Shown here piece after piece: positions 20,161 through 61,876 of a DNA stretch of 64,000 bases; the stretch's first letter is position 1, and each line of letters starts with the position of its first letter. The stretch is from Calvatia gigantea (Eukaryota; Basidiomycota; Agaricomycetes; Agaricales; Lycoperdaceae), in assembly GCA_025093985.1 (NCBI GenBank), contig JACAAK010000004.1:3906001-3970000 (forward strand), in the 5' to 3' direction. The notes under the pieces were generated by a model that was not told the origin of the DNA, did no database searches, and saw nothing but the letters and a program-made list of their open reading frames with translations. The position numbers and the translations under genes are program-made.

Positions 20161-20465
20161 TGTTATGATCTCCATACAATCAAGTTGTATCCCACCACCA
20201 TCAGTGTTCCATCTATCCATGTATTAGTTTCAGCTATTCCTGTAGAGCAATCTCCAAGCATGACTTGTATTGACTACCACACCAACCTCACCAGATGTTC
20301 CATGTAGTTACTCCATCTATTCAACTAGATGGGCTTCTTGTATTTAAGTGTACATACATCCTTTGTATTCAGTACACTTAACCACCTTGGTTCCTCTCCC
20401 CTTATTCACCCTCAAGTCTTAGCCTAAGTTGCAACCTGAGGTAAACTCAGACTAAGGTTGTAACA
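20161..20465 (+). repeat. E1 5-prime LTR
   Basis: This 305-bp LTR matches 42978-43282, with roughly 16 differences, mostly C/T or A/G transitions. A TATA-like TATTTAAG lies at about 20340. The internal sequence after it begins TTTGGTTAAGCATCCCC; TGGTTAAGC may be a primer-binding site, but the matching tRNA could not be named. Confidence 0.9.
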
Positions 20466-24562: not shown

Positions 24563-25854
24563 TGTGATATGGATGTATGGCTTAGATTAAGCTGACAGAA
24601 TAGATTTTTAAAGGTTTCTGCACAAGGCAAGTTTGTAGGGAGGCAATCTGACAATATGAGGGACAATTCCACAAAATAACATAAAACAATGACATATAGA
24701 GAACACCAGAATAACTAGCTATCTTCACTAAGAAGAGTAAAGCTAAGTTACACTATAAAAAGTACAACTCACATCCCTTATCTAAAAAGTTAACAAGACA
24801 CAGAACCTCAGGTACTCCCTAAGATTCACCCTTATCAAGTCAATGACCAGAAGCACACTATCCTACACTTGTGATACTCCAAGTACCAGGGTGTAGTAAT
24901 GCAATATGCTCTTAATCTAAGCTCACTTCACAAGTAAGCCAAGGTCTTCTTCTTAGATTACAAAGGTCTCAACCTTAGCTCGAGTCACTTAGTCCAGTTA
25001 ATCTCAAAAGAACTTATTACTTTGCTTTGCTCAGACACAATAGATCACTTTTCACTGTGCTCTGAAGGCTGGGCAATGGCTAGTAGGTTTCTTGCCACGT
25101 CTGACACCTCAGAGAGGGTTTATATATTATTTGGGTGCTTGTTATGACAAGACAATGATTACACAACTAGGAACATATTATCAAGCAAGGTACAAACTGG
25201 TAGATTAGATTGCATGCCAAGAGAGCTGCAACCTGTTAGATTAGTGAAACATTGGAAATATAGAAGGATTCTGGGTATCCATTTGTTCTGGGCTGTGTTT
25301 TAGCCCATTCTCTGGGTCTGCATTCTTCTCTAAATATGTAGAACATCTAAGATTTTGGACATTGTGTGAACTGTTCTCCTATGTGTTCCTGTGGATTGTA
25401 CATGAACACATCCATATGCATCATTAGTGCTAAGTAATGTTCATTAATCTAACAACAGTGGCATTTCCTTGTGAGTACGCCAATCATCCTTTTAGATTAA
25501 GCACATCAGACTTATTTCCTGAGTCTAGGCTTATTGGAGGGGTCCCGTAGCTCTGTATAGATGCATTGGAATGGTTTTACCACCTGGTCTGGCCAGAATC
25601 ACGACTGGTCATATGGTACACTGTTAGAATTGCTTTTTGTTAAGCACAGTGGTCATCCCATAGCCACCACTATCCATCATCAATGGTCATAGTGTTCTAC
25701 AGTGATCAAGTACTCTTTTATTATACTGTTGGGCTCTTAAATTAGGTTGTACTACTACAGAAAGGTTCGATGCAATTGTTAGATTAGGCTTGTATGCCTT
25801 AGATTAGCGATTTTCATGTGTGAAAATGGCTTTGCCGTTATACTGCAACAGAAT
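24563..25854. mobile_element. Unidentified 1.3-kb insertion in E1 pol
   Basis: This block separates two pieces of E1 pol that are contiguous in E2 (39400-39480). No coding sequence is visible. The motif TTAGATTA recurs (for example near 24584, 25768 and 25800). It is flanked by similar 9-base words GAATACTAA (left) and GAATTCTTA (right), which may be a degraded target duplication. TG...CA ends make a solo LTR possible, but the flanks do not give a clean 5-bp duplication. Confidence 0.5.
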
Positions 25855-25859
25855 TCTTA

Positions 25860-26167
25860 TGTTATGGTTTTTTACCAATCACATCGTACTCCATCATTGT
25901 CTGCATTTCCATACTGCTAGTATATCTGTTTCACTTATTCCTGTCAAGCGATCTCTGGCTATGACTCATACTAACTACTGTGCCAACCTGATCAGATATT
26001 TCATGTAGTAACCCCATCCATTCAACTGGAAGACTTCCTGTATTTAAGCATACATACATCCACTGTATTCAATACACTTAACCATCTCTTGTTCTCCTCC
26101 CCTTACTCACCCTCAAGTCTTAGCCCAAAGTTGCAACCTGAGGTAAACTCAGACTAAGGTCATAACA
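25860..26167 (+). repeat. E2 5-prime LTR
   Basis: This 308-bp LTR begins TGTTATGGTTTTTTACC and ends GGTCATAACA; its pair is 41052-41359. The 3-prime 130 bases are close to the E1 LTR, while the 5-prime third differs, so they are subfamilies. Confidence 0.9.
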
Positions 26168-26246
26168 TTTGGTTAAGCATCCCCACTTCACCTTGCAAGG
26201 AGTAGGCTGAAACAGGCCTGAACAAAGATAACCCAGGAGCTAGTAT

Positions 26247-28340: not shown

Positions 28341-28966
28341 TGTTATGAACTTACCACACCCCTGGACTCTCCGCATTAACATATTAACCTTCCGTACGGA
28401 CTTTCCATTCTTCTTCTTGTATACCCCGGTCCGTTCTTTATTTATTTATCACATATACTTCTACCTTTGCTTCTTATGATTCATTCTGAATCATGTTCCT
28501 GTTTCACCTTTATCTTTTTCCACCATCGTACTTCTCTTTACCTGACTCCATCTTCTTATGACTCGTACTCGTTCTTCTATTCATTTCACCTATCCCTATG
28601 ATTCCTTAGATTACCAATTAACCCGTAGTAGTTCTCATTGACTCATATCTACTTACTACGTAATCTCTCATCTCCTATTCGCAGCTAGTATATAAACCCT
28701 AAGTAGTACTTTGTATTACTTCAGGTTATTCTAGTAACAAGCTTCCTTATCTTCGCTTGTCTGCTACAAGGCTAACAACCTTGGGGACTGCAGTGACATT
28801 TAACTCGGACTTCTCAGGCAAGCGCGAGCTTCTACTCAAGGGAGCGATCCGAAGCCTGCACAGAAGTCATTGAGACTTGTCGAATACTCCTGGGCTATAG
28901 CGTTGAACCTCTCCCTGAGTGGAGACGATCCGGGCCCAGTTGCGAAGTAAGGTAACGCACGTAACA
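28341..28966 (+). repeat. E3 5-prime LTR
   Basis: By eye it differs from the 3-prime LTR at about nine of 626 positions. All are transitions and at least eight fall in a CpG of one copy (for example TTATGA/TTACGA, GTCCGTT/GTCTGTT, AGCGTTG/AGTGTTG). The low divergence shows a fairly recent insertion. GTATATAAACCC near 28688 is a likely TATA box. Confidence 0.92.
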
Positions 28967-29114
28967 TAAGAATAACCTCAACCTCCTTTCTCTCGTTTCT
29001 ATATGACTCCAGTCTCTTACGGCCAGCTTCTGCCAACTATCCCTCCGTCCAGTTGATGTTGAGAAGCCTTCCTGGTAATAGGGTTAAGAAGAGTGGAACT
29101 TCGGGTCCACTGAC

Positions 29115-34100: not shown

Positions 34101-34948
34101 CCAGTCAAGCTCTCATGAAACGACTTGGAATCACCCAATCATTCTCATCAGCCTACCACCCTCAATCAGATGGAACAACAGAACGATTCAATCAGGAAAT
34201 TGCAGCGTACCTATCTATCTACTGTACAGGAAATCCCTCCTCCTGGTCTAAAGCACTCCCAATCCTCGAATTCTCCCATAATTCACGAACACACTCTGAC
34301 CGGAAACAAACCCCTTTTGAACTCATGTACGGAACAAAACCCCATGGAATACCCACCATTCTGGAGGAATCAAACTTCACCACTACTGAAGAACGAATAG
34401 AACTCCTAGACCATGCACGAAGAGAAGCAATTGCTGCCCACAAACTAGCTATGGAACGCATGGAACAATGAATCAAAGCAAAATTCAAACCCTTCACCCT
34501 AGGACAAAAAGTGTGGCTTGAACGGAGAAACCTGAAACTCCCATTCAAATCAAACAAGATCGCACCAAAACGCCTTGGACCGTTCACTATCAAAGAAGTC
34601 TTATCGCCGCTCTCCTACCGACTGAAACTACCTGAAACATGGAAGATTCACAACGTATTCCACGCTACCCTTCTCTCCGAATACACCGAAAACAATACCC
34701 ATGGATCAAACCCACAACCACCTCTCCCTGACATAATAGAAGGAGAAGAAGAATACGAAATCGAAGGCATCTTGAACCATAGAACCAAGAATAAACAAAG
34801 GGAATACTACATCAAGTGGAAAGGTTACAACCACGAAGAAAACTCTTGGGAAAACGAAGCACAATTCTTACCACATGCCCAAGAACTGTTACGAAAATAC
34901 CAACGAGAACACCACCTAATTCCCATCCCACCTAAAAGATATAAATAA
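31187..34948 (+). pseudogene. E3 pol (PR-RT-RNaseH-IN-chromodomain, six TGA stops)
   Basis: One frame of about 1250 codons, -1 relative to gag. In order: protease (ALIDSGAQGNFISS), RT ([36 protein letters not shown]), RNase H (IETDASKYALGAVLSQQ), integrase (HHCC region with GCGECQQFK, then ITMDLLTNLPKSHG, SDRDPRF, HPQSDGTTERFNQE) and a C-terminal chromodomain (YYIKWKGYNHEENSWENE). It is broken only by TGA at 32165, 32243, 32366, 33098, 33668 and 34469. At each the family consensus has Arg, so each is best explained as CGA to TGA. Without these it would be a complete polyprotein. Confidence 0.92.
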
Positions 34949-35009
34949 TCCAGGATTCACCCAACTTCTCCATCATTCCTTAACAACACTTCCACAAACC
35001 GAACTACCA

Positions 35010-36224
35010 ATGGCACCAACCCAGAAGAACTATAAGAAGGGAAAGAAAGCGGCCATTGTAGCCTCATCCCCCTCTCCTTCCCTTTCTTCAATCTCTTCCC
35101 TTTCCACAAAAAACAATTCCCCAATCAGAAAGGCCCATTCTCTCCCCTCCTCCCCTCATATTTCTATATCCTACCCTCCCACCGTCACACCTGTGGGCCA
35201 CGAAACCCCAATTCTCCCCACCGTCCAAATTAACGAACTGCTCGAAAAACCCATTATCACCCTCCCGAATGCCATCTTTACCAAAGACGAGCTCCAACAA
35301 TTCGCAGACTAGAACAAACAATTCTGGGTCGACGTCTTCGTCGGTCCAGATTGCGTCTACATTCCCCCCTCCACCGAATCATCTCCCAGTACCCCCTGGG
35401 ATAGACTCACCTACCCAACAAGAATGGGAAGCAGCCCCACTGTATCCCAACCTAATCCCCAGCGAACAGAGGCACCAAACCCATCCAGCAACCCCGAACC
35501 AAGAGACCCGCCAGTCTCTTTCTCCAGTGTCGTCACCGGAGCCACTCCCCATACCGCCACCTACAACACGAAATCAACCCCACAGTGGCTCCTCTGGTCA
35601 CCGAAACCAAAATACGTCTACCCAATCCGGGCCGACAACCCCACCCCAACACTCCCCTCAGAGCGAGCTGGGATCCCGAAATCTGTTAGGGCAGAACTTC
35701 CTGTCCTCGACCAACGACACATTCCCCCCTCTACCGCCGGCCCCTCTCCAAAGTCCCCCACAACTACCACCGTCAATCCGAAACCCCCCAGGTCAGCCTG
35801 GGACAAACTACACCCCACTGAACACTCAGCCACGGGTTACATCGCAGCCAACCCATCCGATCGAGACCCCGACAGACGAAGCAGCTTCTCCCCCGACCCT
35901 CCCTCTACAAACGATAGACCTTTGCCCATGGAGTTATGGGCTAGAACTGATTTCTCATCTGAGGGATCCCTCCGCACGATAGTCCTCAAGGGAGGCCATC
36001 GAACTCGCTTCCGCACCGAATATCTACATAATGCCAATCAGCGAAATCACTGGTGCTTTATCTGCGACGCCATTTCACAGCTCGAACATCTTTCTCGGGA
36101 TTATGAGCATGCTACCGATCGAGCGGCCCTATTTATCCAGGCATCACGAAGCCTTGGATTACCTCAGGCTTACGCCCGCTACCTCAACGAGCATAGCGTT
36201 AAGCCTATCCCACCCAACCAGTGA
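35010..36224 (+). pseudogene. E3 extra 3-prime ORF, first part
   Basis: ATG at 35010 lies 61 bases after the pol stop. The frame runs MAPTQKNYKKGKKAA and, after one TAG (35310-35312, in QQFAD-stop-NKQFW), stays open to 36224, about 404 codons. It is serine- and proline-rich, with a more ordered end (NHWCFICDAISQLEHLSR, GLPQAYARYL). It has no signal peptide or membrane segment, which argues against an env-like gene. A second frame (35269-35982 and onwards) is also largely open and proline-rich, so the exact reading path is uncertain. Confidence 0.55.
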
Positions 36225-36477
36225 ACTGGCCCTTCTAAGGTCAGACCACACCAACGAGCCGATTCCCCCACGAGAAACTCCTCCCCCGAACCGCATGTAC
36301 CTTCCTCATCCACATCTCTCCCATCCAGACGGACACATCCCACCCGAACGATTCGAAACGGCCATACACAACTTAATGGGCCAACTGGACCAACTTCTGA
36401 ACCTCAGAAGTCTATTCGAAAACCCCTCGGCCCTAACTCAGGACGAGGAAGAACCCCAATCCAACCCCGAGCTATGA
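36225..36477 (+). pseudogene. E3 extra 3-prime ORF, middle part in shifted frame
   Basis: In the +1 frame relative to the preceding part, an open stretch covers 36031-36477. It ends with a protein-like segment (HIPPERFETAIHNLMGQLDQ, LLNLRSLFENPSAL). Its TGA at 36475-36477 overlaps the ATG of the next frame at 36474 (ATGA). A frameshift or splice may link it to the first part. Confidence 0.45.
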
Positions 36478-36827
36478 ACAACCCAAACTTCGACCCGAAG
36501 GCCTTTTGTGAAAAATGTGCCAAACTTCACCTCCCTGCCGTAGGTCACTGGGCCAGTGATTGTGCCCATACCACTTGTCCCATCTGTCGAAAAACCCGCC
36601 CTGGCCATTACCGCTGGACCTGCCCCCAATACTTCTGCCGACTCTGCGAAACTCTCAACCCGAAACACAAACCAGAAGATTGCCCGAAATATGTCGACCA
36701 CGTCCAAGCCGTTGAAAATATGAAACAACATTTCCAAGAACAAATCTTGGAAAACCCCCGTGATGCCTTCGACGACGAATATTACAACGACGGAGTATCT
36801 TTGGACTACTCAGTCCTATCCGCATAA
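36474..36827 (+). CDS. E3 extra 3-prime ORF, cysteine-rich part
   Basis: A 117-codon frame starts with the ATG of an ATGA overlap. It encodes repeated Cys/His pairs: CEKCAKLHLPAVGHWASDC, then CPICRKTRPGHYRWTC and CRLCETLNPKHKPEDC. These look like three consecutive zinc-knuckle modules (C-X2-C-Xn-H-Xn-C), as in nucleic-acid-binding proteins. It stops 32 bases before the 3-prime LTR. The gag of this element already has its own knuckle, so this is a second potential nucleic-acid-binding product. The function is unknown. Confidence 0.6.
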   Translation: MNNPNFDPKAFCEKCAKLHLPAVGHWASDCAHTTCPICRKTRPGHYRWTCPQYFCRLCETLNPKHKPEDCPKYVDHVQAVENMKQHFQEQILENPRDAFDDEYYNDGVSLDYSVLSA

Positions 36828-36859: not shown

Positions 36860-37485
36860 TGTTACGAACTTACCACACCCCCGGACTCTCCGCATTAACG
36901 TATTAACCTTCCGTACGGACTTTCCATTCTTCTTCTTGTATACCCCGGTCTGTTCTTTATTTATTTATCACATGTACTTCTACCTTTGCTTCTTATGATT
37001 CATTCTGAATCATGTTCCTGTTTCACCTTTATCTTTTTCCACCATCATACTTCTCTTTACCTGACTCCATCTTCTTATGACTCGTACTCGTTCTTCTATT
37101 CATTTCACCTATCCCTATGATTCCTTAGATTACCAATTAACCCGTAGTAGTTCTCATTGACTCATATCTACTTACTACGTAATCTCTCATCTCCTATTCA
37201 CAGCTAGTATATAAACCCTAAGTAGTACTTTGTATTACTTCAGGTTATTCTAGTAACAAGCTTCCTTATCTTCGCTTGTCTGCTACAAGGCTAACAACCT
37301 TGGGGACTGCAGTGACATTTAACTCGGACTTCTCAGGCAAGCGCGAGCTTCTACTCAAGGGAGCGATCCGAAGCCTGCACAGAAGTCATTGAGACTTGTC
37401 GAATACTCCTGGGCTATAGTGTTGAACCTCTCCCTGAGTGGAGACGATCCGGGCCCAGTTGCGAAGTAAGGTAATGCACGTAACA
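36860..37485 (+). repeat. E3 3-prime LTR
   Basis: This 626-bp LTR is nearly identical to 28341-28966. The bases before it (TCTAGAGACGGGCTAA) are only weakly purine-rich, so the polypurine tract is not obvious. Confidence 0.92.
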
Positions 37486-37490
37486 CAATG

Positions 37491-40036
37491 TCAGGATCAA
37501 GGAAGGGGACAAATGGAAAGTGGCATTCCTCACCAACAAAGGACTTTTTGAGCCAACAGTCATGTATTTCGGCCTTAGCAACTTGCTAGGGACCTTCTCC
37601 AGAATAATGACAAGCATCTTCCACAACCTCTTGCAAAATGGAGACATTGTAAACTACATGGACAACTTCGCCATCCCTGGTGACACCAAAGAACAACTAA
37701 AGGAACAGACAATACGATTCCTGGAATGTGCAGCACAATACAACCTATGCTTCAAATGAACCAAATGCATCTTTGATGCAGAAGAAATCCCAATGCTAGG
37801 AGTCAAAGTAGGACATGGACGAATTGAAATGGAAGAAGAAAAAGTCAAATCAATATGAGATTGGCCTGAGCCAAAAAGTACAAAAGGGGTAGAAAGATTC
37901 CTGGGTTTCGCTAATTACTACTGACATTTCATCAAGAACTTCAGCAAGATCGCAGGACCACTAAACAAGCTCAAAGGAGTAGCCACATGGGAGTGGAACC
38001 AAGAACACCAGGCAGCCTTTGACCATCTTAAAAAATGTATCACCAAAGAACCTATGTTAACCCTACCACAAAGATAAGGCCAGTTCAGGGTAGAAGTTGA
38101 TGCATCAGACTATGCATTAGGAGGTGTGCTATCGCAGCTACAGGAGGCCAAATGGCACTCAATCACCTTTACATCACAAATGTTATCACCAGCAGAATGC
38201 AACTATGAAATATATGACAAAGAACTACTGGCCATTGTCCATGCCCTGAAAGAATGGAGACACTACCTGCTAGATGCTGAAGAAAAGTTTGAAATCTGGA
38301 CTGACCACGAAAACTTAAAATACTACTGAAAACCACAAAAACTGAACGGACAACAAGCCTGATGGTACTTACACTTACAGAATTACAACTTCACACTATG
38401 ACATGTACCCAGAAAAACAAATACAAAGGCCAACCTATTGTCCCAAATCCACTAAATACCAGAAGAACAAGAAGACAAACTAGTCACCATGATCCGAGAA
38501 AGCTGGCTACAGACAGAAAACACAGGTGACACAGTACTCTTACAGGCAGAGTTATTCCTTGAGCCAACATTCCTAGAACAGATCCAGAACAAGTCTCAGT
38601 GCGAGACAACAGTCCTTACTGAGCTAAGAAAACCAGAGTCCACACTCACCAAGGACCATGGAATTATCTACAGACAAAATAGTGCATATGTCCTACCTGA
38701 CCCAAAACTACGAGAAGAAATTCTAGCACAATATCATGACATCCCAGATGCAGGACATTCAGGCCAGCATAGAATGATGGAACTAATCAACCGTGACTAC
38801 TGGTGGCCAACAATGAGAAAAGATGTAAAGAGGTACATCCGAGGGTGCCAAGCCTGCCAGAAGAATAAAACTAGAATAATGCCACTCAAATCACCGCTTC
38901 ACCCCCTTCCTATACCAAATGGACCTTGGGAAGAAATTAGCATCAACATGATCAGACCATTACCAGAGTCAGAAGGGAAAGACACAATACTGGTCATTAT
39001 CGATCGATTCACAAAAATGATATGACTCATAGTGACAACAATGGACATTTCATCCAAAGACATCACAAGGGTTTATCAAGATGAAATATGGAAACTGCAC
39101 AGACTGCCAAGGAAGGTACTGAGCGACCAAGGACCCCAATTCACATCAGAGTTCATCAAGGAGTTATTCAAAGGACTTAGCATAGAATGGAACCTATCAA
39201 CGGCATATCACCCACAAACTGATGGACAAATGGAACGCATCAACAGAGAAGTGGAAACATACATCCGCCTATATTGCAATTATGATCAAGATGATTGGGC
39301 AGAATGGCTTTCCATTGCAAAATTCCAGTACAATGACAAACGACATAGAGGAACACAAGAAACACTATTCTTCCTAAACTATGGAAGGAACCCATGGAAG
39401 GGCAAGAATGAGCCAGCAATGAACAACCCAGTCACCACAGAATTTCTAAAACACCTTCAGGCCGCCCGAGATAATACCGCATCAGCACTATGGACATATC
39501 AAGAAAAGATGAAACAACAACATAACTGCAGTAAAACCCACATCAAGACATATCAGATAGGCGATGCAGTATGGCTGGAAAACACCAACATCCATACCAA
39601 TCAAACATCAAAGAAACTAGGCCAAAAATGGTATGGGCCTTTCCTTATCAAGGAAAAAATAAGAGAAGCGGCATATCAGCTAGCCCTACCAGAAGGATGG
39701 GCCATCCATGATGTATTCAATGAACAGCTCCTAATACCAGCCCATGAGGCTGAGTTCCTGAGCCAAAGACAACCATCAGTGCCTGACCCAGTCATCATCA
39801 ACAATGAAGAGGAGTATGAAGTAGAGGAGATCCATAGGCAAAGGAAACATGGAAGGGGCTATCAATTTCTAGTCCATTGGAAGGGGTACAGCAACAAAGA
39901 AGATATGTGGACAGCAGAATCCAACTTGACAAATGCTCAAGATGCAATAGCAGATTACCAAAAGAGGCATCCAGAGGATGTCCATAAAAAGAGGGGCAGA
40001 AAAGCCAAAAAATCATCACCCAGCCAAGGAAACTAG
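37491..40036 (+). pseudogene. E2 pol, part after E3
   Basis: RT resumes at VRIKEGDKWKVAFLTN. The catalytic box is changed to NYMDNFA (D to N). RNase H reads VDASDYALGGVLSQLQ. The integrase zinc region (HRMMELINRDYWWP, CQACQKNK) and catalytic core (VLSDQGPQFTSEF, HPQTDGQMERINREVE) follow, although the first Asp is Asn (SINMIRPLPES). The C-terminal chromodomain reads FLVHWKGYSNKEDMWTAESN. Stops are mainly TGA at Arg positions, plus TAA. The last 335 codons (39032-40036) are open. The stop TAG is six bases before the next ORF. Confidence 0.9.
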
Positions 40037-40042
40037 CCAGAC

Positions 40043-41026
40043 ATGCCTTCCTCCCAAGCCAACCATGTCACTATCCATTCTCTCGTCCACCCCAACCCAA
40101 CCACAATCTCCTCCATTCCCCTCCCAGAACCAGGCAGCAGCCAAGCACCTGCTCTCTAGAGCACTCGTTACAACCTCGCCACCATGCCATCCCCAGTGCA
40201 GGGGCTCCTTGAATCCCTACTGAAAGACATTGACAAAGCTACCAACAGTGAAATAGAAACCATCACTGCTCAAAACAAGCAACTAGTCATCAACCGATAC
40301 ATCGCCCTAGCCACTACATGCATCACCTTTGCCGACATGTATGCAGGGTTCGCCAATGCGTCCTCGTCCACCAACCAGCACATTCCCACCATCTTCTGAG
40401 CCTTAGACCAATCCACACTCACACCCAGTGAACAAGACCGTGTCTACAGCCTCCACAACCACATTGACCTCGGACTTGAAGTATTCAAATACCTCAATAT
40501 TGCTGACATATTCCTAGAACTTGCCAATGTAGCAATGAACCTACTTAGATGTGACAAGACCACAGAAGATCCTGAGATCAATACCCTCATCAACAGGATC
40601 CATAGTACTCTCTCCAAACTACACAATACAATCAACCCCATGCCACCAACCTGATCTGACACACCCATGGACAAAGAAACAACCATCTCCATAAAGGAAG
40701 AAGTTAACTTACTCTGCCACTTCATAAAGACCATCACTCCACTACAACTTGTATTAGTTTTTCTCCCTCCTGCAAGATTCCGCACTGTGTTACCAGGACA
40801 AGAAAAGGACCAACACTATTGGAGAACAATAGTCAAGAACTATTGGGACAACTCCACCACGACTGACTTCCCATTCAATGGCATCCCAGTCCCTATCTGC
40901 CAGGATGGAAGAAGCTACTTGCCCATCTTCTTTGCACAATTGAACAATGGAAAGTACCTTATCAGAGCCACCAAGAAGGCCCTTGCCTCTGCCGTAGTCA
41001 ATGGCAACTTTGACAAAGCTTCCTGA
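40043..41026 (+). pseudogene. E2 ORF3, conserved extra gene of the E1/E2/E4 family
   Basis: ATG at 40043 follows the pol stop by six bases in the same frame and gives 327 codons to 41026, interrupted by TAG at 40157, TGA at 40397 and TGA at 40652. It starts MPSSQANHVTIHSLVHPNP. A probably helical N-terminal part (QGLLESLLKDIDKATNSE, ITFADMYAGFANASS, IADIFLELANVAMNLL) is joined through a short acidic linker to a second part (HFIKTITPLQLVLVFLPPA, IPVPICQDGRSYLPIFFAQL, YLIRATKKALASAVV). There are no membrane spans, signal peptide or zinc motif. The same gene occurs in E1 and E4, so it is a stable part of this family. I do not recognise the protein. Confidence 0.8.
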
Positions 41027-41051
41027 GGCATAAAGCCAAATTGGGGGGTAT

Positions 41052-41359
41052 TGTTATGGTTTTTTACCGATCACATTGCACTCTGTCATTGTCTGCATTT
41101 CCATACTGCTAGTATATCTGTTTCACCTATTCCTGTCAAGCGATCTCTGGCTATGACTTGTACTAACTACTGTGCCAACCTGATCAGATGTTTCATGTAG
41201 TAACCCCATCCATTCAACTGGAAGACTCCCTGTATTTAAGTGTACATACATCCACTGTATTCAGTACACTTAACCATCTCTTGTTCTCCTCCCCTTACTT
41301 ACCCTCAAGTCTTAGCCCAAAGTTGCAACCTAAGGTAAACTCAGACTAAGGTCGTAACA
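41052..41359 (+). repeat. E2 3-prime LTR
   Basis: This 308-bp LTR is preceded by the polypurine-like tract TTGGGGGGTAT. It differs from 25860-26167 at about 13 positions, nearly all transitions. Confidence 0.9.
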
Positions 41360-41364
41360 TTTTA

Positions 41365-41964
41365 CAGAAGCTACAGGCCACCTGAGACAACACCTCATCA
41401 GCACTACGGATGTACCAAGAAAAGATGAAACAGCAACATGACTGCAGAAGCCTTCATAACAGAACATACCAAATGGGCGACAAGGTATGGCTGGAAAATA
41501 TGAATATCCACACCAATCAAGCATCAAAAAAGCTAGGCCAAAAACAGTATGGCCCTTTCCTCATTAAGGAAAAAATAGGAGAAGTGGCATACCAGCTCAA
41601 CCTACCTGAGGGATAGGCCATCCACAATATCTTCAATGAACAGCTCCTGACACTGGTGTACAAGCCAGAATTCCCAAGCCAAAAGAAGCCATCAGCACCT
41701 GAGCCAGTGATCATCAATAATGAAGAAGAATATGAAGTGAACGAGATCTGAGGACAACAAAAACGAAAAAGGGGATATCAGTTCCTAGTACATTGAAAAG
41801 GATATGACAACGAAGAAGATACATGGACAGCAGAGTCCAACCTGAGCAATGCAAAGGAAGCCATACAGGACTACCTAAAAAGGCATCTGGAGGATACCCA
41901 TAAAAAGGGGGGTAGAAAATCCAAAAAGACATCCAACAAGCCAGCCAACAAACAAAGCCACTAA
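41365..41964 (+). pseudogene. E1 pol, 3-prime part (integrase end and chromodomain)
   Basis: This continues the integrase that broke off at 24562 (MYQEKMKQQHDC, then VWLENMNIHTNQASKKLGQK). It ends in a chromodomain with stops (FLVH-stop-KGYDNEEDTWTAESNLS). The pol stop TAA is two bases upstream of ORF3. Confidence 0.85.
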
Positions 41965-41966
41965 AC

Positions 41967-42959
41967 ATGCCTGCCTCTAAAACCAACCATATCACAATCT
42001 CCTCACTCATCCACCCCAACCCAACTAGAATCTCCTCTGTCCCAATACCTAAACCAGACAATGGTAAAGCCCCAACCCCCAGTGGCACTTGATTCAACAT
42101 GGCCACAACACCATCTCCTGCTCAAGGGTTATTGGAAGACCTGCTCAAAGATGTTAGCAATGCCACTGATGCTGAACTAGTCACCATCACCAACCAGAAC
42201 AAACAACTGAACACCAATCACCTCATTACCCTCACTACAGCCTACATCACATTTGCAGACATGTACACAGGCTTTGAGAATGCCTCCACATCCACCAGTA
42301 AACACATTCCGGCCATCTTTTATGTCCTCTCTCAATCAGCCCTCACACCATCTGAACAAACTCACATCAACAACTTACAAAGCCAAGTCGACCTCATATT
42401 CGAAGTACTCAAAGACCTCAATGTAGCCAAAATCTTCCTAGAATTAGATGACATCACCTCCAGCCTCCTAGGCTACAACACCACTCCCAATGACACTAGC
42501 ACTGAAGAACTTGTCAGCCATATCCATTCCACCCTGAAAGAGCTCTGAGATACTGTTAGCCCCCCCCAAGTGACTACCCAGGCTGACACCCCCATGGATG
42601 AAGAAGTAACAGTATTTATGAAAGAAGAAGTAAATGTCCTGCACCACTTCATCAAGACCATCACACCCCCTCAGATTGTCTCAGTTTTTCAGCCACCTGC
42701 CCACTACCACACTGTGTTACCCAGCCAAGAATGCAGCCAACCCTACTGGCACTTGATAGTCCAGAATTACTGGGAAGCCTCGACTGTCACTGAGTTCCCA
42801 TATGAAGGGGTCCCAGTCCCTATCCGACAAGACAGTTGAAGCCATTTGCCTGTCTTCTTCGCACGGTCCAACAGTGGAAGATATCTTATAGGCGCCACCA
42901 AGAAAGCTCTCGCCACAGCTGTCATCCATGGGGACTTCGACAAGCTTTCTGAGGCATGA
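41967..42959 (+). pseudogene. E1 ORF3
   Basis: ATG at 41967 opens 330 codons to TGA 42957-42959. The start MPASKTNHITISSLIHPNP matches E2 ORF3. The helical part (QGLLEDLLKDVSNATDAELV, ITFADMYTGFENASTS) and C-terminal part (HFIKTITPPQIVSVFQPPA, YLIGATKKALATAVIHGDFD) are conserved. Stops at the GT-stop-FN, EL-stop-DT and DS-stop-SH positions are all TGA. The fact that divergent E1 and E2 still align over the whole length supports past selection on the protein. Confidence 0.8.
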
Positions 42960-42977: not shown

Positions 42978-43282
42978 TGTTATGATCTCTGTATAATCAA
43001 GTTGTATCCCACCACCATCAGTGTTCTATCTATCCATGTATTAGTTTTAGCTATTCCTGTAAAGCAATCTCTGAGCATGACTCATATTGACTACCACACT
43101 GACCTCACCAGATGTTCCATGTAGTTACTCTATCTATTCAACTAGATGGGCTTCTTGTATTTAAGCATACATACATCCTTTGTATTCGGTACACTTACCC
43201 ACCTTGGTTCCTCTCCCCTTATTTGCCCTCAAGTCTTAGCCTAAGTTGCAACCTGAGGTAAACTCAGACTAAGGTCGTAACA
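42978..43282 (+). repeat. E1 3-prime LTR
   Basis: This 305-bp LTR is preceded by CAGGGGGTAT (polypurine-like). It is the pair of 20161-20465. Confidence 0.9.
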
Positions 43283-43405: not shown

Positions 43406-46400
43406 TTACATGAGACTAAGAGCATGAGTGAAAACAGAGAACTTCACATGAGGAAGAGCCTTGGTAAGAATGTTGGCAGGCTGTTCATCAGTGGGAATGT
43501 AAGAAGTTGCAATGTGACTAGTGTTGTTGCAATCACAAATGAAGCAGTACTTGGTATCAATGTGCTTGGTGCGCTCATTGATGTTGCCAGTGGTAACGAG
43601 TTGAATAGCAGACTGATTGTTGCTATGAAGAGGAGTGGGGGATGTAATCAGAAGATGGAGAGAATCAAAGAGATTTTGGAGCCAGAGGACTTCCTGACAT
43701 GCAGAGGCAGCTACAATGAATTCAGCTTCAGTAGTCGAGGTTGATACACAGTTTTGCTTCCATGATGCCCGAGTGATAGCACCACCTGCAAGATGAGAGA
43801 CATAACCAGTAATAGACTTGCAATCAGTACAATCACCAGCCCAATCAGAGTCAGCATACAGGATGGGCTTATCAGGACCTTCACCAGCTTGATAGACAAG
43901 CTTGTAGTCACTAGTACCTTGAAGGTAGTGAAAAATATACTTCGCAGCCTTAATATGGACATGACCAGGGGCTGCCACATGACAAGATACAACACCCACT
44001 GCATAGGCAATGTTGGGACAAGTGCAAACCATTGCATACATGAGTGATCCAATCATGCGTTAATACTCAGTAATGTTGACTTCAGGCTCAAAGAGCACAG
44101 GAAGGAAAAGGCCGGACTCCATAGGGGTCTTGACTGGGTGACAGTCAGCCATACCGTGACATTCAAGAATGTCTTCAATGTATTGGGACTGCGAAAGAGT
44201 AACCTGTTTATGATCTTCACTCTGAGTGACCTCCATTTGAAGAATCCATTTTGTCCCACCAAGATCCTTCATGTCGAAACATGACTGAAGGTTGGACTTG
44301 GTGTTGTTGGTGGTGTTGGGATCAGCAGAGATAATGAGGAAATCATCAACATAGACAGCAATGATGATAAGGGTACCATTTTCCAGCTTCATGAAAACAC
44401 TGTGATTGGAAGCACTTCATATGTAACCCATAGACTCTAATTCCACCTGAACCTTCTTGTACCACTCACAACCAGCTTGCTTGAGGCCATAGAGTGCTCA
44501 GTTGAGCAGCCAAATGTAGCCATTGGGGGTGTCAACACTGGGAGGGACCTTCATGAAAATCTCCTCATTGAGATCTCCATTTAAGAAGGCAGACTTCACA
44601 TCCATCTGGTGAATGTGCCAGTCATGCTTTGCAGTGAGGGCGAGGAGTGTTCGGATCATGGAGTGCTTGGTCACAGGAGCATAAGTTTCATTGTAGTCAA
44701 CACCTTCGACTTGTGAAAAGCCTTGGGTGACCAAATGAGCCTTGTAGCATTCAACCTGACCATCAGCACCAACTTTGCACCTGAAGACCCATCTACAGCT
44801 GATGATATGACAGCCATTAGGTTTCGCAACTTTAGTGTACAGTCCCTTCTTCACAAACTCCTCTAATTCCTCTACCATGGCCTGCTTCCAGTATATTGCA
44901 TCAGGGCAAGCCATTGCCTCCTCATACATGACTGGATCATGTTCAAGCAATGCAGTTTGGGCCAATTCATCGCCCACTGAAGCCTGAGCAGACCTGGGAG
45001 ATGCCCCAGAAGTGTCCTCATTTTCAACCTCCTCTACAGCTGTCATACCCTTCGGAGTCCCTGGATTTCACTAGTAGGAGCTTCGTTGATACCTTGAATT
45101 ATCATCCCGTACAGGTGCACACCCGTTTCACAGAGAACAATAGACTTCGGGAGGTGGCACAGGAATTGGATAAGGAGAGGTAGAAGTTGATGAATTGGCT
45201 GGTTTCTCAATGTTTCCAGATGTGGCGGAGGTGCGTACCCCTGTTTTCGATGCTGCTGAATCCGAATCTGAAGTCGGTTTAGCCACGTGTACAGCTGTTC
45301 TCGCGTTGGAGCGATCTAAGCGATCTGGAGTAGGGAGAGAAGGATTTGCAATTTCTGGGGCATTGGCTCGTAATTTCGGGGCGGTTTTGGTATCATTAGA
45401 GACACCTGAAGCTGCCGAATCCGCCGCAATTTGTTTCGTGTTTGTAGCCACGCTAGAATTGAAGTTATTGCCATCTGAAGTTGCCCTTCTTTCCCCTCTT
45501 CTCCTTTCACCTGGAAAATCGCGTTTTCGTCATCTGGAGTACCCGGAACGTCAGGATTTACATCAATAACCACCCTAGAATGTTCCACCTCACTCCCTTC
45601 ATCAAACCAAACATCCCATGATTCAAAAATCCGACCTGAGGGATGATGGAGGAGAATATAGGCCTTCTTGTGTTGAGAGTAGCCAAGATATACACAGTGT
45701 AGGGACTTTGAGCTGAACTTGGCTCTCTTAGACTTCAGAATGAGTGTGTGAGCATCACAACTGAATACTCGAAGGTGAGCGATAGAGGGTTTGTTGCCAG
45801 TATAGGCCTAGTGGGGTGTGACATCATTGTTGAGGGCTCTAGTGGGAACTCAGTTGAGGATGTAGGGTGCATATGTGACGGCATGTGACCAGCATGACTC
45901 CGGGAGTCCTGATTCCTTCAACATAGTCTGAGCCATGTCAAGGATGGTCCTATTCATGCATTCGGCTGCTCCATTCTCCTGGGGAGTGTCTGGGTTGGTA
46001 ACCTCATGGTGAATCCCTCGTGATGCAAAATACTGCTTAAGTGATACTGAGGCGTACTCCCCACCTCTGTCTGTACGAAAATGGTTCAGCCTTTGTCCTG
46101 TCTCGACTTCAGCACATTCAATGAGCCACTTGAGATGCTCCTCAGCTTCATCTTTCGATTTTAGCAATACGACCTTGAGATAGTGTGAGTGTCCATTGAG
46201 GAATGTCATGAAATAATGTTCCCCTCCTCATCCTTATGGTTCGATAGGTCTGATGAGATCTGAGAATACCTGATGCAATACAGAAGGGTTCTGGACAGTT
46301 GACTCCTTCAGAATGGTGGCTCGAGTCTGTTTCCCTTCGAGACAGGCCTTGCACGTCATCAGATCGTGGTCTTTGTCATTGTTGAGATGCATTCCCTTCA

Positions 46401-47925
46401 CCATTTTCTGCTGAAACAGTTTCTTGACAGATTGAGGCATGATATGGCCAAGTCGACAATGCCATGTGGTGATGGAACCAGTGGAGGCAGTCGTCATCGC
46501 GATGAGTGCAGTATGATCAGGGAGATCGGCCTCAGAGGCTTGATCTGTGACTTTGATGGAGTCCAGGAGTGTGTTGACATTGTCAGATATGATGATATAA
46601 GTGTGTTCAGTGGTTCTGGCCAATGTGTTCAGGATGTAGAGACTGTTCTCCTCGCGAGCTGTCACTGTGACCTGACCAGCCTTGATAAACTGACATCCTG
46701 ATTTAGTGAATTCGAGCTTGTATCCACATTGGCTGAGTGTTGAGACTGAGAGAAGGTTTCCACTGAGTTCGGGGACATAGTAAACATCAGGGATGATGTA
46801 CTTGGTGTCACAACTACCTGTCGAGATCAATAGCTGAACACATCCAACCCCAGTTGCAAGGATGAATCGCTCATCTCCGAACCAAATGCGACATGGCTCC
46901 TTGAGCTCCCAATAGGTCACAAACCAATTGTGACAAGAACTCATGCGCAATGAGGCACCAGAGTCAACAATCCACTTTGATGACATCTCCTTTTGTGTAG
47001 CAAGTACCTTGGCCATGAAGAGTTGGATTGACTCCTCTTTTGAGTCTTCATTGACTACAACCATCTTTGCTGACATATCACCATCTTTCTTCTCCCCAGT
47101 CTTCCCTTCCTTCACAGCTTGGTTTGCCTTCAATTTGTGGCATTCGTGCTTGAAGTGACCTTTCTTCTTGCAGTACTTGCACTTCTTATCCTTCTTGTCA
47201 CTATCACCAGACTTGTTGATAAACTTGCCCTTTGACTTCATCTGAGCTACAAAGGCAACTTGCGAAGTGCCAAGCTTGAGACTCTTCTCCTCAGTGAGAA
47301 CTTGAGTGATAACAAAGTCAGTGGTGAGTTTGGACCCATCAGGGCCAGCAGACAAAGAGTTGAGGATTGTGCAAAGCATGGAATAGAAATCAGGAAGTGC
47401 ATTGAGCATAACATAAGTGATGACAGAATTGGACAGTGGCTCGCCCAGTGTTTTGAGGATGAAAGCTTTGTGACATATATCATTGAGCTGAGGTTCCATA
47501 GGAGTTTCATTGGACAGTGTTCCACGAAAAATCTTCTTAATGAGATATGCAACCGTGTTCTGACCCTTCCCTTTGTAATGACAATAAAGCTTGTCCCAGA
47601 CATCAAAGGTGGACACAGCATGTATAACACCATTTAAGGGCTCATCCTTTAAGGTCAGGGTAAGCTGAGCCTTGGCCTCCATGTCACAATATTTCCAGGC
47701 ATCAATTCAAGTTTGACCAGCAGCAACAGCAGTACTGTCAGTACCTGAGACAGGGTCTGGGCATTTTTTAGTGCCATCTATGATTCCCTTGAGTCCTCAC
47801 AGCTGGAGGACAGTGGATATGTGAAATTTCCATGTCTGGAAGTTCATGCTGTCATTTTCAAGTGATAGGATGTTGTAAAGTCAGTTTGATCTTCTGATCT
47901 GAGAAGATCCAGCAGGATTAGACAT
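43406..47925 (-). pseudogene. Copia E5 gag-pol polyprotein remains
   Basis: The ATG is at 47925 (MSNPAGSSQIRRSN). A UBN2-type gag is followed by a zinc knuckle CKYCKKKGHFKHEC, protease KWIVDSGAS, the GAG-pre-integrase motif WHCRLGH, integrase (HFRTDRGGEYAS, PQENGAAECMNRT), a serine-rich linker, RT (FVKKGLYTKVAKPNGC, HQMDVKSAFLNGD, AVYVDDFLIISAD) and RNase H (YADSDWAGD, then STTEAEFIVAA). TGA stops are frequent, with one TAA near 46234. The longest open piece is 46234-47682. The element is not functional. Confidence 0.92.
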
Positions 47926-54289: not shown

Positions 54290-54973
54290 ATATGTGTAAT
54301 GGTGTTGGTCAAAAATGGGTCATGGGAAGCAAGAGAGGACATCAAGATGAGGAGACTTTCAGAGAAGATAACATTGGCAGCCTCAACTGGAAAGTTTTTG
54401 ACAACAGGAGGTCCAGAGTGTATTGCAGTCTGGAGATGGCCATTTGACAGTGTCACAGTAGCAGGGGCCAAATACATCTGAGGATCACAAACCAATACAG
54501 AGACAAGACTTTTGTCTATTGCATTTCCAAGAGTGGAATTTGAATGGATTGGAATAGGATTTGTTGGAATGTCTCTGAGATCAATTACATAATTGCCATT
54601 GGATTGAAGGGTGGAATTAGCTCCCAAAAAAAGAAAGCCACTGAGAGGATTATCAAAGTCATGATAGTCATCTGTCAGGCTGACCTCCATCATTGGAAGA
54701 ATCATTGGGCACCATATCAGCAGTAAATAGGATCTCAGCAAGTAAGAAGCATGCCAAATCCCTCACAGCCTAGATAAGTAGTTGGAGAACCTAGCTGAGG
54801 AACTGGCCCCAGGGAACTTATCACCCAGATATTATTGTCTATGGTCTAGGAAGTCACGGACTCATTGACCATTGACTGTTTCCAGGAACAACTGAAACTG
54901 TAGGTGATGATGTCACTCTCATACTTGACTGTCCCATTGGCTGATATTAGGGTTTGTGATAGCCAAGGTATAA

Positions 54974-55278
54974 TGTTACGACCTTAGTCTGAGTAAACCT
55001 CAGGTTGTAACTTAGGCTAAGACTTGAGGGTGAGTAAGGGAATGAGAACAAGAGGTGGTTAAGCATACCAAATACAATGAGTGTATGTATGCTTAAATAC
55101 AAGGAATCATCCAGTTGAATGGATGGGGTAACTACGATGAAATGTCTGGTAAGGTAAGCATAGTTAGTATGAGTCATAACTGGAGATTGCTTGACAGGAA
55201 TAGGTAAAACGGATGTACTAGTAATGTAGGAATGCAGACAAGGGCGGAGCATGATGTAATCAGTAAAAAACCATAACA
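54974..55278 (-). repeat. E4 3-prime LTR
   Basis: This 305-bp LTR is paired with 61572-61876, with roughly 17 differences, nearly all transitions. Confidence 0.92.
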
Positions 55279-55303: not shown

Positions 55304-56215
55304 TCAGGAAGCTTCGTCAAAGTCACCATTGACTACAGCAGAGGTGAGGGCTTTCTTGGTGGCTCTGATAAGGTATTTTCCATCGTTTGAGCATGTAAAG
55401 AAGACAGGCAAGTGGCTTCACCCATCCTGCGTTTTCCAGTAGTGTTGGTCCTTTTCTTGCCCTGGTAACACAGTGTGGAATCTTGCAGAAGGGAGAAAAA
55501 CTGATACAAGTTGTGGTGGAGTGATAGTTTTGATGAAGTGGCAGAGCAAGTTGACTTCTTCTTTTATGGAGACAGTTGTTTCTTCATCCATAGGCATGTC
55601 AGATCAGGTTGGTGGTGTGGGGTTAATTGTGGTGTGGAGTTTGGAGAGGGTACTGTGGATCCTGTCAATGAGGGCATCAATCTCTGGGTCTTCGGTGGTT
55701 TTATCACGTCTGAGTAAGTTCATTGCTACATTGGCGAGCTCTAGAAAGATGTCGGCAATATCAAGGTGCTTAAATACTTCTAGCCCAAGGTCGATGTGGT
55801 TGTGAAGGCTGTGGACATGGTTTTGTTCACTGGGTGTGAGTGTGGATTGTTTTAGGGACCAGAAGATGGTGGGGATGTGCTGGTTGGTGGATGAGGAGGC
55901 ATTGGCAAACCCTACATACATGTCAGCAAAGGTAATGCATGTGGTGGCAAGGGCAATGTGCCTGTTGATGACTAGCCGCTTGTTCTGAGTGGTGATGGCT
56001 TCCATTTCACTGTTGGTGGCCTTGTCAATGTCTTTCAGTAGGGATTCAAGGAGCCCCTGTGCTGGAGATGGTGTGGTGGCAAGGTTGTAATGAGTGCCTT
56101 GGGGGGCAGGTGCTTGGCTGTTGCCTGGCTCTGGGAGGGGGATGGAGGAGATTGTAGTTGGATTAGGGTGGACGAGGGAACAAATAGTGACATGGTTGGC
56201 TTGGGAGGAGGGCAT
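55304..56215 (-). pseudogene. E4 ORF3
   Basis: ATG at 56215 lies six bases after the pol TAG, in the same frame. It gives MPSSQANHVTICSLVHPNP and is open for 203 codons to TGA 55604-55606, then continues in frame to 55304 with one more TGA. The N-terminal part is complete (QGLLESLLKDIDKATNSEME, ITFADMYVGFANASSS, IADIFLELANVAMNLLRR). Relative to E2 it lacks about 25 codons between HYWKT and QDG, an in-frame deletion. Together with E1 and E2 it shows that ORF3 is a constant feature of this family. Confidence 0.8.
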
Positions 56216-56221
56216 GTTTGG

Positions 56222-59200
56222 CTAGTTTCTTTGGTTTGGTAATGATTTTTTGTTTCTTCTACCCCCCTTTTTATGGGTATCCTCTGGATGCCTTTTCTGG
56301 TAGTCCGCTTTTGTGTCTTGAGCATTTGTCAGGTTGGATTCCACTGTCCATGTACAGTATCTTCTTCATTGCTGTATTCTTTCCAGTGGACTAGGAATTG
56401 ATAGCCCCTTCTGTGTTTCCTTCACCCGCAGATTTCCTCTACTTCGTACTCTTCTTCATTGTTGATGATGATTGGGTCAGGCACTGATGGTTGTTTCTGA
56501 CTTGGGAACTCGGCCTTGTGAGTTAGTGATAGGAGCTGTTCATTGAATACATCATGGATGGCCCATCTGTCTGGCAATGTCAGCTGATATGCTGCTTCTC
56601 CTATCTTTTCCTTAATAAGGAAAGGGCCATACTGTTTTTGGCCTAGCTTCTTTGATACTTGATTGGTATGGATGTTTGTGTTCTCCAGCCACACTGCATC
56701 GCCTATTTGGTACATTTTGGTGTGGGTCTTGTTGTAGTCATATTGCTGTTTCATCTTTTCTTGGTATGCTCGTAGTGCTGATGAGGCATCATCTCAGGTG
56801 GTCTGAAGTTTCTTTAGGAAACCCATGGCTGCTGGGTTGTTTGTCAGTGGTTCGTTTTTCCCTTTCCATGGGTTTCTTCTGTAATTTAGGAAGAATGGTG
56901 TCGCTTGAGTTCCTCCATGTTGTTTGTTGTTATACTGAAATTCTGCAATGGGGAGCCATTCTGCCCAGTCGTCCTGGTTGTAATTGCAGTATAAGTGGAT
57001 GTATGTTTCTACTTCTCTGTTGATGTGCTCTGTTTGTCTGTCTGTTTGTGGGTGGTATGCTATTGATAGGTGGCATTCTATGCTGAGCCCCTTAAATAGT
57101 TCTTTGGTGAATTCTGATGTGAATTGAGGTCCTCAGTCGCTGAGTACTTTCCTCAGTAGTCCATGTAGCTTCCATATTTCATCCCGATATATCTTTGTGA
57201 TATCCTTGGATGAAATGTCTGTGGTAGTCGCTATAAGCCATATTATTTTTGTGAAGTGGTCTACAACGACCAGTACTGTGTCTTTCCCTTTTGACTCTGG
57301 TAGTGGTCCAATCATATTGATGCTAATTTCTTCCCAAGGTCCATTTGGGACTGGGAGGGGGTGTAGCGGTGATTTGAGCAGTGTTGTTCTTGCCTTATTC
57401 CTTTGGCAGGCTTGGCACTCTTGGATATATTTCTTCATGTCCTTTTGTATTGTTGGCCACCAATAGTTGTGGCTGATTAGTTCCATCATTCTGTGTTGGT
57501 CCAGGTGGCCTGTGTCTGGCACATTGTGGTACTGTATTAGGATTTCTTCTCATAGCTTTGGGTCAGGTGGGATGTATGTGCTATTTTGTCTGTAGATGAT
57601 TCCATGTTCCTTGGTGAGCTTGGACTCTGGCTTTCTTAATTCAGTGAGGACTGTTGTCTTGCATTGGGGCTTGTTTCAGATCCATTCTAGGAATGTTGGT
57701 TTGAGGAATAGTTCTGCTCGTAAGAGCACTGTGTCGTCTGTGTTCTCCTTTTGCAGCCAACTTTCCCGGATCATGGTGACTAGTTTGTCTTCTTGTTCCT
57801 CTGGTATTAGGTGGATTCGGGATAATAGGTTGGCCTTTGTGTTTGTCTTCCCGGGTACATGTTGCAGTGTGAAGTCATAGTCCTGTAGGCATAGGTACCA
57901 TCGGGCTTGCCATCCGTTCAGTTTTTACAGTTCCCAGTAGTATTTCAAATTTTTGTAGTCGGTCCAGATTTCAAATTTTTCCTCTGCATCCAACAGGTAG
58001 TGTCTCCATTCCTTTAGGGCATGGATGATGGCCAGTAGCCCTTGTCATATATTTCATAATTATGTTCTGCTGGTGATAGTGTTCATGATGTGAAGGCGAT
58101 TGGGTGCCATTTGCCCTTCTGTAACTGGGATAGTACACCTCCTAATGCATAGTCTGATGCATCGACTTCTACCCTGAATTGTCCTTGTCTTTGTGGCAGG
58201 GTTAACATGGGTTCTTCAGTGATGCATCTTTTAAGATGATCAAAAGCCGTTTGGTGTTCTTGGTTCCATTCCCATGTGGCTGCTCCCTTGAGTTTGTTTA
58301 GTGGTCCGGCAATCTTGCTGAAGTTTTTTATGAAGCATCGATAGTAGTTGGCAAAGCCGAGGAACCTTTCTACTCCTTTTGTGTTTTTCAGCTCTGGCCA
58401 GTCTCACACCAATTTGACCTTTTCTTCTTCCATTTCGATTCACCCATGTCCTACTTTGACTCCTAACATAGGGATTTCTTCTGCATCAAAGATGCATTTG
58501 GTTCGTTTGAAACACAGATTGTATTGTGCTGTGCACTCCAGGAACCGTACTGTCCGTTCTCTTAGTTGCTCCTTGGTGTCACCAGGAATGGCAAAGTCAT
58601 CCATATAGTTCACAATATCTCCGTTCTGCAGTAGGTCACGGAAGATGCTTGTCATCATTCTGGAGAAGGTTCCTGGTGAATTGCTGAGTCCAAAATACAT
58701 GACTGTTGGCTTGAAGAGCCCTTCATTGGTGAGAAATGCAGCTTTCCATTCATCTCCTTCCTTAATCCTAACGTTGTTATATCCCCAGATGATATTGAGC
58801 TTGTTGAAATATTTGGCCTTTCCGAGTTTGTCAATCACCTCGCCAATTCTTGGCAACAGCATTTTGTCCTTGATTACCACATTGTTTAATCACCTATAGT
58901 CCTGAATTAATCTCTTTGATCCATCCTTCTTGGGGATGAAGAAGGTTGGTACTGCATATGGGGATTTCAATGGCTGTATTTATCCTGATTCCAGGTTCTC
59001 TTTGATGAATGCTTTGAGTTCGTCCTGTTCTTTGACCATCATGTTGTAAGTTCCTGTGCTTATCTCCTTCGGGGCGTCCTCTATTAGGATTATTTCATGA
59101 TCCCATTTGGTTCATTCTGGGAGTTTGTTGAATGTTGTTTTGTTGAACAGATGCGTGAATGGTTGTATGTAGTCTGGTAAATCCTTTAGTTTGGTTGGGT

Positions 59201-61492: not shown

Positions 61493-61571
61493 ATACTAGC
61501 TCCTGGGTTGTCTTTGTTCAGGCCTGTTTCAGCCTACTCCTTGCAAGGTGAGGTGGGGACGCTTAACTAAA

Positions 61572-61876
61572 TGTTATGACCTTAGCCTGAGTAAACCTCA
61601 GGTTGCAACTTAGGCTAAGACTTGAGGGCGAGTAAGGGAATGAGAACAAGAGGTGGTTAAGCATACCAAATACAATGAGTGTATGTATGCTTAAATACAA
61701 GGAATCATCCAGTTGAATGGATGGGGTAACTATGATGAAACGTCCAGTAAGGTAGGCATAGTTAGTATGAGTCATAACCGGAGATTGCTTGACAGAAATA
61801 GGTGAAATGGATGTACTAGTAATGTAGGAATGCAGACAAGGGCGGAGCACAATGTGATCGGTAAAAAACCATAACA
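61572..61876 (-). repeat. E4 5-prime LTR
   Basis: This 305-bp LTR is paired with 54974-55278. The internal sequence next to it has the same TTTAGTTAAGC block as E1 and E2 (TTTGGTTAAGC). Confidence 0.92.

Follow-up and report, generated by a model that had tools for sequence, protein, structure and literature searches.

What is a third open reading frame (ORF) doing behind the chromodomain of a fungal retrotransposon? The question is raised by a stretch of 64,000 nucleotides (nt) of Calvatia gigantea (hereafter the window), part of contig C34 of a genome of 45.95 Mb in 77 contigs, in which three Ty3/gypsy elements, E1, E2 and E4, carry related frames, called ORF3, between the stop codon of pol and the 3' long terminal repeat (LTR). 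ORF3 is a real gene on which purifying selection has acted strongly, both inside subfamilies of these elements and from one subfamily to another. It is probably the genuine third gene of a high-copy family of Ty3/gypsy chromoviruses, made by termination-reinitiation and encoding a non-envelope accessory protein.

An open copy of ORF3 taken from elsewhere in the genome retrieves, when used as a tblastn query, the stretches 40043-41017 of E2 (74% identity), 55313-56215 of E4 on the minus strand (71%) and 41967-42956 of E1 (64%). This agrees with an earlier note on the window, which had rightly placed the three frames between pol stop and 3' LTR and given their coordinates, starts and layout. In each element, ORF3 fills the space from the pol stop to the polypurine tract or 3' LTR, and the copies fetched from elsewhere in the genome also have it behind pol. 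The note described frames of about 300-330 codons; the homologous frame is there, but it is not open in the window copies, which contain 3, 3 and 2 internal stops (E1, E2 and E4, respectively) and, in E4, a deletion. The remaining five frames of the same stretches contain 5 to 33 stops.

Selection on ORF3 was estimated as the ratio of non-synonymous to synonymous divergence (dN/dS, or omega) by the method of Nei and Gojobori (NG86), from pairwise comparisons that follow the frame of ORF3 and omit stop codons, and expressed as the ratio of mean dN to mean dS. Only distinct copies were used (20 young and 29 old); with duplicates (21 young and 33 old rows) the values are nearly the same. The ratio is 0.110 between young copies (190 pairs, 20 copies), 0.127 between young and old copies (580 pairs), 0.172 between old copies (406 pairs, 29 copies) and 0.143 between young copies and E1 (20 pairs), values that are perhaps biased somewhat low because 20 of the sampled regions were picked for having ORF3 open and L001-L038 are the loci that match the window queries best. 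As controls, the same codons read in shifted frames give 0.93-1.38 (+1 frame) and 1.19-2.01 (+2 frame). Most of the change falls on third codon positions (0.038, 0.018 and 0.133 at positions 1, 2 and 3 in young pairs). Bootstrapping of eight single pairs yields omega values of 0.083-0.205 with upper 95% bounds of 0.147 to 0.301, and neutral simulations under ten settings with transition and CpG bias yield mean values of 0.57-1.15, the lowest single value being 0.25. Past selection on the protein, which the earlier note had read from the alignability of the copies, is therefore confirmed by a dN/dS far below 1. The contrast between 0.11-0.17 in frame and 0.93-2.01 out of frame also leaves next to no probability to a captured non-coding sequence with a chance open frame, even though base composition favours long frames (a frame of 328 codons arose in 2 of 2000 first-order shuffles, the longest frame averaging 136).

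The remaining genes of the same loci provide a scale for this constraint. In pol, dN/dS is 0.08-0.10 for protease (PR), 0.04-0.05 for reverse transcriptase (RT), 0.03-0.06 for RNase H, 0.08 for integrase (IN), 0.06-0.16 for SH3 and 0.12-0.14 for the chromodomain with its tail, some of the young-old comparisons resting on as few as 16 pairs. The gag gene gives 0.08-0.11 overall and 0.23-0.42 for residues 25-135. Within ORF3, the three comparisons range over 0.12-0.21 for residues 1-45, 0.08-0.11 for residues 46-200 and 0.14-0.18 for residues 226-328. The constraint on ORF3 is thus comparable to that on integrase and chromodomain and weaker than that on RT.

The three copies of which the earlier note spoke belong to a very large family. 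Because searches of the genome were capped at 40 (DNA) or 150 (protein) scored candidates, all counts are minimum values, and remote relatives or a homologue of ORF3 in the host may have escaped notice. The candidates numbered 748 with a 203-residue piece of E4, 692 with a piece of E1, 678 with a C-terminal piece of E2 and 744 with the open copy, 150 of them being scored in each case. At least 82 genomic rows have at least 87% identity to the open copy; among those listed, 67 are stop-free over whatever portion of the first 203 codons is matched and 45 have a complete open frame of 330-359 codons without any stop (counted by hand in the table). Three further rows at 84-86% (one without and two with a stop) were left out of this count. 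In many genomic copies, the open frame is about 328 codons long. ORF3 lies at the expected distance in 70 of the 81 listed integrase rows with at least 86% identity, a set that omits three partial rows, one stop-free and two interrupted by stops; ORF3 is present at that distance in two of these three as well. Among the 11 integrase rows without a listed ORF3, at least two (C23:4703571 and C34:798930) carry ORF3 C-terminal sequence near the expected place; the other nine may be members without ORF3. In the 70 paired copies, stops occur in IN only in 27 and in ORF3 only in 4 (McNemar p 3e-5). This imbalance was rejected as a sign of stronger selection on ORF3, because codons that are one transition away from a stop are about twice as numerous in the IN stretch (23 versus 12 in one copy). 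One locus, L059 (G000:C67:137970-138200), looks recombinant: its ORF3 body is 95% identical to the young subfamily and its junction and first codons resemble the type found in L050 (2011-2161, minus strand).

The elements that carry ORF3 are Ty3/gypsy chromoviruses, with LTRs, a polypurine tract, a zinc-knuckle gag and a pol in the order PR-RT-RNase H-IN that ends in a chromodomain. In one natural pol, Pfam recognizes RVP_2 (residues 74-173), RT (298-459), RNase H (521-651), H2C2 (761-818), rve (840-931), SH3 (1048-1106) and Chromo (1132-1182); SH3 and Chromo are also recognized at the end of the E2 pol, and gag with zf-CCHC in one natural copy of the family.

The ORF3 protein (about 328 residues, 36 kDa) has a proline-rich start, an acidic stretch predicted to be helical and a mixed alpha/beta part, as seen in low-confidence models. 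It might accordingly comprise a conserved, unstructured proline-rich N-terminus of about 50 residues, a helical middle of about 150 and an alpha/beta C-terminal part of about 125. Since ORF3 occupies the place of env, after pol, an env-like protein has to be considered. It is very improbable: in one open copy, no membrane span is found and the Kyte-Doolittle mean over 19 residues peaks at 1.28, the polar, proline-rich start does not resemble a signal peptide (judged by composition; no dedicated signal-peptide program was used), and the best Pfam E-value over 13 natural ORF3 rows is 0.043. The view that the gene is not env-like therefore holds, no stretch coming near the hydropathy of a membrane span.

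Sequence comparisons relate ORF3 to no known protein family. Pfam gives no match for the full ORF3 at E up to 1; over the 13 natural rows only three families appear, without GDSL, DEDDy, dUTPase or any other known accessory domain. Searches of PHROGs and of PDB sequences return weak matches only, with no convincing PDB relative; a match to WASF1 (E 0.0095) was taken as chance, as the profile search did not recover WASF1. Likewise, an origin from a duplicated Gag was discarded, since hhalign of ORF3 against the gag alignment, both alignments being shallow, gives a probability of 0.1% and thus no sign of kinship. Among 5.8 billion proteins, phmmer with one ORF3 finds none at E ≤ 0.001 in 4348 candidates, and the 13-row profile finds a single match at E ≤ 1 among the best 7995 word-sharing candidates scored. 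This protein, P0123 (122 residues, from a contig of 703 nt), is 96% identical over 27% of the query. Compared with ORF3, it is missing residues of about 88-189, a gap flanked by two short stretches of similar DNA, as template switching would leave. In viral contigs, 59 pattern matches to ORF3 were obtained, none of which was confirmed.

In the same database, the integrase-chromodomain part of the element has 2651 relatives, the best at 65% identity and one, from Agaricus bisporus, at 57%; those with a named source come from Agaricomycetes. Identity of ORF3 between subfamilies is 64-74%, near that of pol, so an ORF3 in the elements related by pol should have turned up, if present and predicted as a protein. 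From these comparisons, ORF3 is likely absent from those elements, many of whose contigs are short. The objection raised beforehand, that the frame could be a captured non-coding sequence present only in this subfamily, is right in that ORF3 is confined to the lineage in the data searched; it does not hold in that ORF3 spans several diverged subfamilies and is coding.

How ORF3 is translated can be approached through its junction with pol. The ATG indeed lies two to six bases past the pol stop in the window, with 2 nt in E1 and 6 nt in E2 and E4, the latter two in the pol frame. It is present in all 52 distinct junctions collected from fetched copies and the window. For these, the automatic value of the pol phase is 0 in 43, absent in 3 and other than 0 in 6 (E1 included), and the phase of the remaining non-zero or absent cases was read from the last ten codons. 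Nine further junctions (L059-L067) were picked by hand, six of which retain the ATG, at 2 nt from the stop in the E1-like L060, L063 and L064, at 6 nt in L067 and at 7 nt in L059 and L062. In L059, L060, L063 and L064, ORF3 is out of the pol phase, as in E1, yet homologous; for the decayed L062, the pol phase is doubtful. The start of ORF3 thus stays 2-7 nt past the pol stop while its phase varies. As closeness to the stop is kept and phase is not, initiation at the AUG after termination of pol is favoured over obligate readthrough; the earlier note had left the two side by side, and the change of phase between copies speaks for the former. The process can be viewed as follows: ribosomes that finish pol would restart at the adjacent AUG of ORF3 (termination-reinitiation), and this restart would yield a soluble protein of its own, about 36 kDa in size and low in amount.

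Alternatively, ORF3 could be made mainly as a readthrough extension at the C-terminus of the chromodomain integrase, its ATG being incidental. In 51 of the 52 distinct junctions (E1 being the exception), the stop is followed by 6 nt, exactly two codons, and then by an ATG that continues the phase of the last pol codons; ORF3 comes immediately after the chromodomain, and readthrough may still occur in the in-phase copies. As the main mode it is nevertheless unlikely, because the phase is lost in E1, L060, L063 and L064 (spacing of 2 nt) and in L059 (spacing of 7 nt) with the homology of ORF3 kept, because no single stop context is maintained in the 51 junctions (TAG in 35 and TAA in 16, followed by C in 41, A in 7 and T in 3), and because the ATG is found in every one of the 52.

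Several points weigh against an accessory protein made by reinitiation. The 51 in-phase junctions fit readthrough too. In three of the nine hand-picked junctions (L061, L065 and L066), the spacing is E1-like and the ATG is lost, and L060 looks disturbed just after its ATG. RNAalifold detects no covarying RNA structure in 30 aligned junctions (12 pairs, 0 changed on both sides). According to the part of PMC5972666 considered here, the start codon in coupled reinitiation mostly shares bases with the stop or lies before it, and an RNA structure is often close by. The cistrons of victoriviruses, hypoviruses and SART1, which this part presents as cases of coupled termination-reinitiation, share with ORF3 a stop and a start that are a few bases apart; unlike in these cistrons, the start of ORF3 follows the stop, by 2-7 nt. 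Moreover, gag and pol are in different frames where both are long, so that reinitiated ORF3 would be very scarce if pol needs frameshifting. As regards the protein, AlphaFold2 models of uninterrupted window pieces have a mean pLDDT (predicted local distance difference test) of 40.7 for the C part (123 residues) and 41.5 for the N part (203 residues). As both means are about 41, the layout given above is low-confidence secondary structure. The defined fold that had been looked for as support is not shown by these models, and a Foldseek search with that of the C part, in which the best E-value is 0.82 and nothing matches at E ≤ 0.001, is uninformative.

The low dose would no longer be a problem if ORF3 had a messenger RNA to itself, produced by splicing or by a promoter inside the element, like env and several ORF3s of bdelloid rotifers; spliced ORF3 messages are called typical for LTR retrotransposons in the section of PMC5408684 concerned. 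This explanation would leave the 2-7 nt between stop and ATG without a reason, and no obviously conserved acceptor is seen in the junction sequences, inspected by eye and not systematically. It thus appears somewhat unlikely, and restart at the AUG remains the preferred mode.

The base composition of ORF3 bears on its origin. In one copy, ORF3 has 36% C, 28% A and a GC content at third codon positions (GC3) of 0.59, and the gag and pol stretches have 22-29% C, 36-41% A and a GC3 of 0.46-0.53. Because of this difference, the composition of that copy suggests that ORF3 might have been captured from another source.

As to function, ORF3 would most likely act as a non-envelope accessory protein that serves the replication of the element itself. 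The strong constraint along the protein and the place adjoining the chromodomain are the reasons for assigning it a job in the element's own cycle. The best guess, a tentative one, is that it would associate with itself and act as a cofactor of the chromodomain integrase or of the pre-integration complex. A role in structure or in the handling of RNA may be counted among the remaining options. Close behind the cofactor comes, as a doubtful candidate, an antagonist of host silencing or defence (methylation, RNA interference). The patchy distribution, the orphan sequence and the differing base composition fit such a captured accessory gene, whereas a dN/dS of 0.08-0.18 in four segments of young copies reveals, at this resolution, no fast segment of the arms-race type.

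The elements of the window are largely nested (Table 1). E2 sits within the pol of E1, behind a further repeat of about 1.3 kb; E3, a different chromovirus, sits within the pol of E2; and E4 is a separate element on the minus strand.

Table 1. Coordinates of the elements of the window and of their 3' regions
Feature	Positions	Strand	Remarks
E1 LTRs	5' 20161-20465; 3' 42978-43282	+	pair identity 93.4%
E1 pol, 5' part	21535-24543	+	
E1 pol, 3' end	41359-41964	+	SH3-like region, chromodomain, basic tail, stop
E1 junction	41962-41969	+	pol stop, 2 nt, ORF3 ATG; out of pol phase
E1 ORF3	41967-42959	+	degenerate, 3 internal stops
E2 LTRs	5' 25860-26168; 3' 41052-41360	+	pair identity 94.8%
E2 pol, 3' part	39032-40036	+	integrase end, SH3, chromodomain, stop
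E2 junction	40034-40045	+	pol stop, 6 nt, ORF3 ATG; in pol phase
E2 ORF3	40043-41026	+	degenerate, 3 internal stops
E2 polypurine tract	41043-41049	+	by eye; 17-23 nt past ORF3 stop, directly before 3' LTR
E3 LTRs	28341-28969; 36860-37488		pair identity 98.4%
E3 extra 3' frame	34920-36827	+	635 codons stop to stop, first ATG 35010, 2 internal stops, Cys-rich C-terminal end
E4 LTRs	5' 61570-61876; 3' 54972-55278	-	pair identity 94.5%
E4 pol, 3' part	56243-58038	-	integrase to chromodomain, broken
E4 junction	56213-56224	-	pol stop, 6 nt, ORF3 ATG; in phase with last pol codons
E4 ORF3	55304-56215	-	degenerate, 2 internal stops, 24-codon deletion

The repeat between the broken pol of E1 and the 5' LTR of E2 (24544-25859) recurs in four other loci (L045, L006, L015 and L025) with 90-94% identity. 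At about 41890-41930, and at the equivalent site of other copies, an A-run followed by a G-run in the chromodomain tail resembles a polypurine tract; it is additional to the tract before the 3' LTR and also encodes the conserved basic motif KKGG. A fragment of a Ty1/copia element (Retrotran_gag_2, gag_pre-integrs) lies at 46234-47682 on the minus strand. Finally, synonymous divergence is low at the ends of the coding regions of the young copies L039-L058: the proportion of synonymous differences (pS) is 0.13-0.14 in ORF3 residues 221-328, 0.17 in gag residues 25-135, 0.13 in pol residues 1-100 (partly overlapping gag) and 0.21-0.34 in pol residues 101-1200. This could reflect RNA signals that act in cis, or recombination close to the LTRs.

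The earlier statement that chromoviruses normally end after the chromodomain fails not only for the family with ORF3 but also for E3, the second chromovirus family in the window, whose pol is 37% identical to that of the first. E3 carries an extra frame between the stop of its chromodomain pol and its 3' LTR, with a first ATG 61 nt past the pol stop. The complete 635-codon frame is found in 8 of the 150 genomic relatives listed, 7 of these 8 being stop-free in the query stretch. It occupies the same place as ORF3; it differs from it in being about twice as long and in its Cys-rich C-terminus, and shows no kinship to it by BLASTP (best E 0.84). It is conceivable, on balance less probable than its contrary, that fungal chromoviruses possess a "3' accessory slot" behind pol that is filled independently by unrelated genes such as ORF3 and the E3 frame, and that ORF3, made by restart at its AUG, is the founder of a new family of proteins whose function, kept by selection, lies in retrotransposition or in defeating silencing by the host.

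Fungal chromoviruses, including those of PMC2864245 (Novikova et al. 2010), share with the ORF3-bearing family, as far as the portions considered describe them, the gag, the PR-RT-RH-IN-chromodomain pol, the LTRs and the polypurine tract. The majority of full-length elements in that paper have one or two ORFs, and the legend of its Figure 3 names additional ORFs of unknown function ("add. ORF"), which are compared here by the wording of the legend only. No mention of an extra ORF behind pol occurs in the portions considered of a survey of fungal LTR elements (PMC3248453) and of a Laccaria survey (PMC3411680). The non-envelope ORF3s of bdelloid rotifers are likewise extra genes past pol, family-specific and of several unrelated types per genome, according to the section of PMC5408684 considered; the types given there are GDSL, DEDDy, env-like, transmembrane and coiled-coil, whereas the fungal ORF3 matches no known family. 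A description of this ORF3 was not found in the excerpts of open-licence literature consulted. The arrangement is thus known in kind, and the ORF3 protein family is apparently undescribed.

LTR retrotransposons are usually modelled as gag-pol machines, and extra genes that are under selection reveal that they have further needs in their host. With measured selection, a high copy number, open copies and a second family with an extra frame, the role of a non-envelope third gene in a fungal retroelement can now be put to the test. Should ORF3 counter silencing, it would indicate a genome-defence pathway of fungi; if it assists integration, it would extend the story of targeting by chromodomains.

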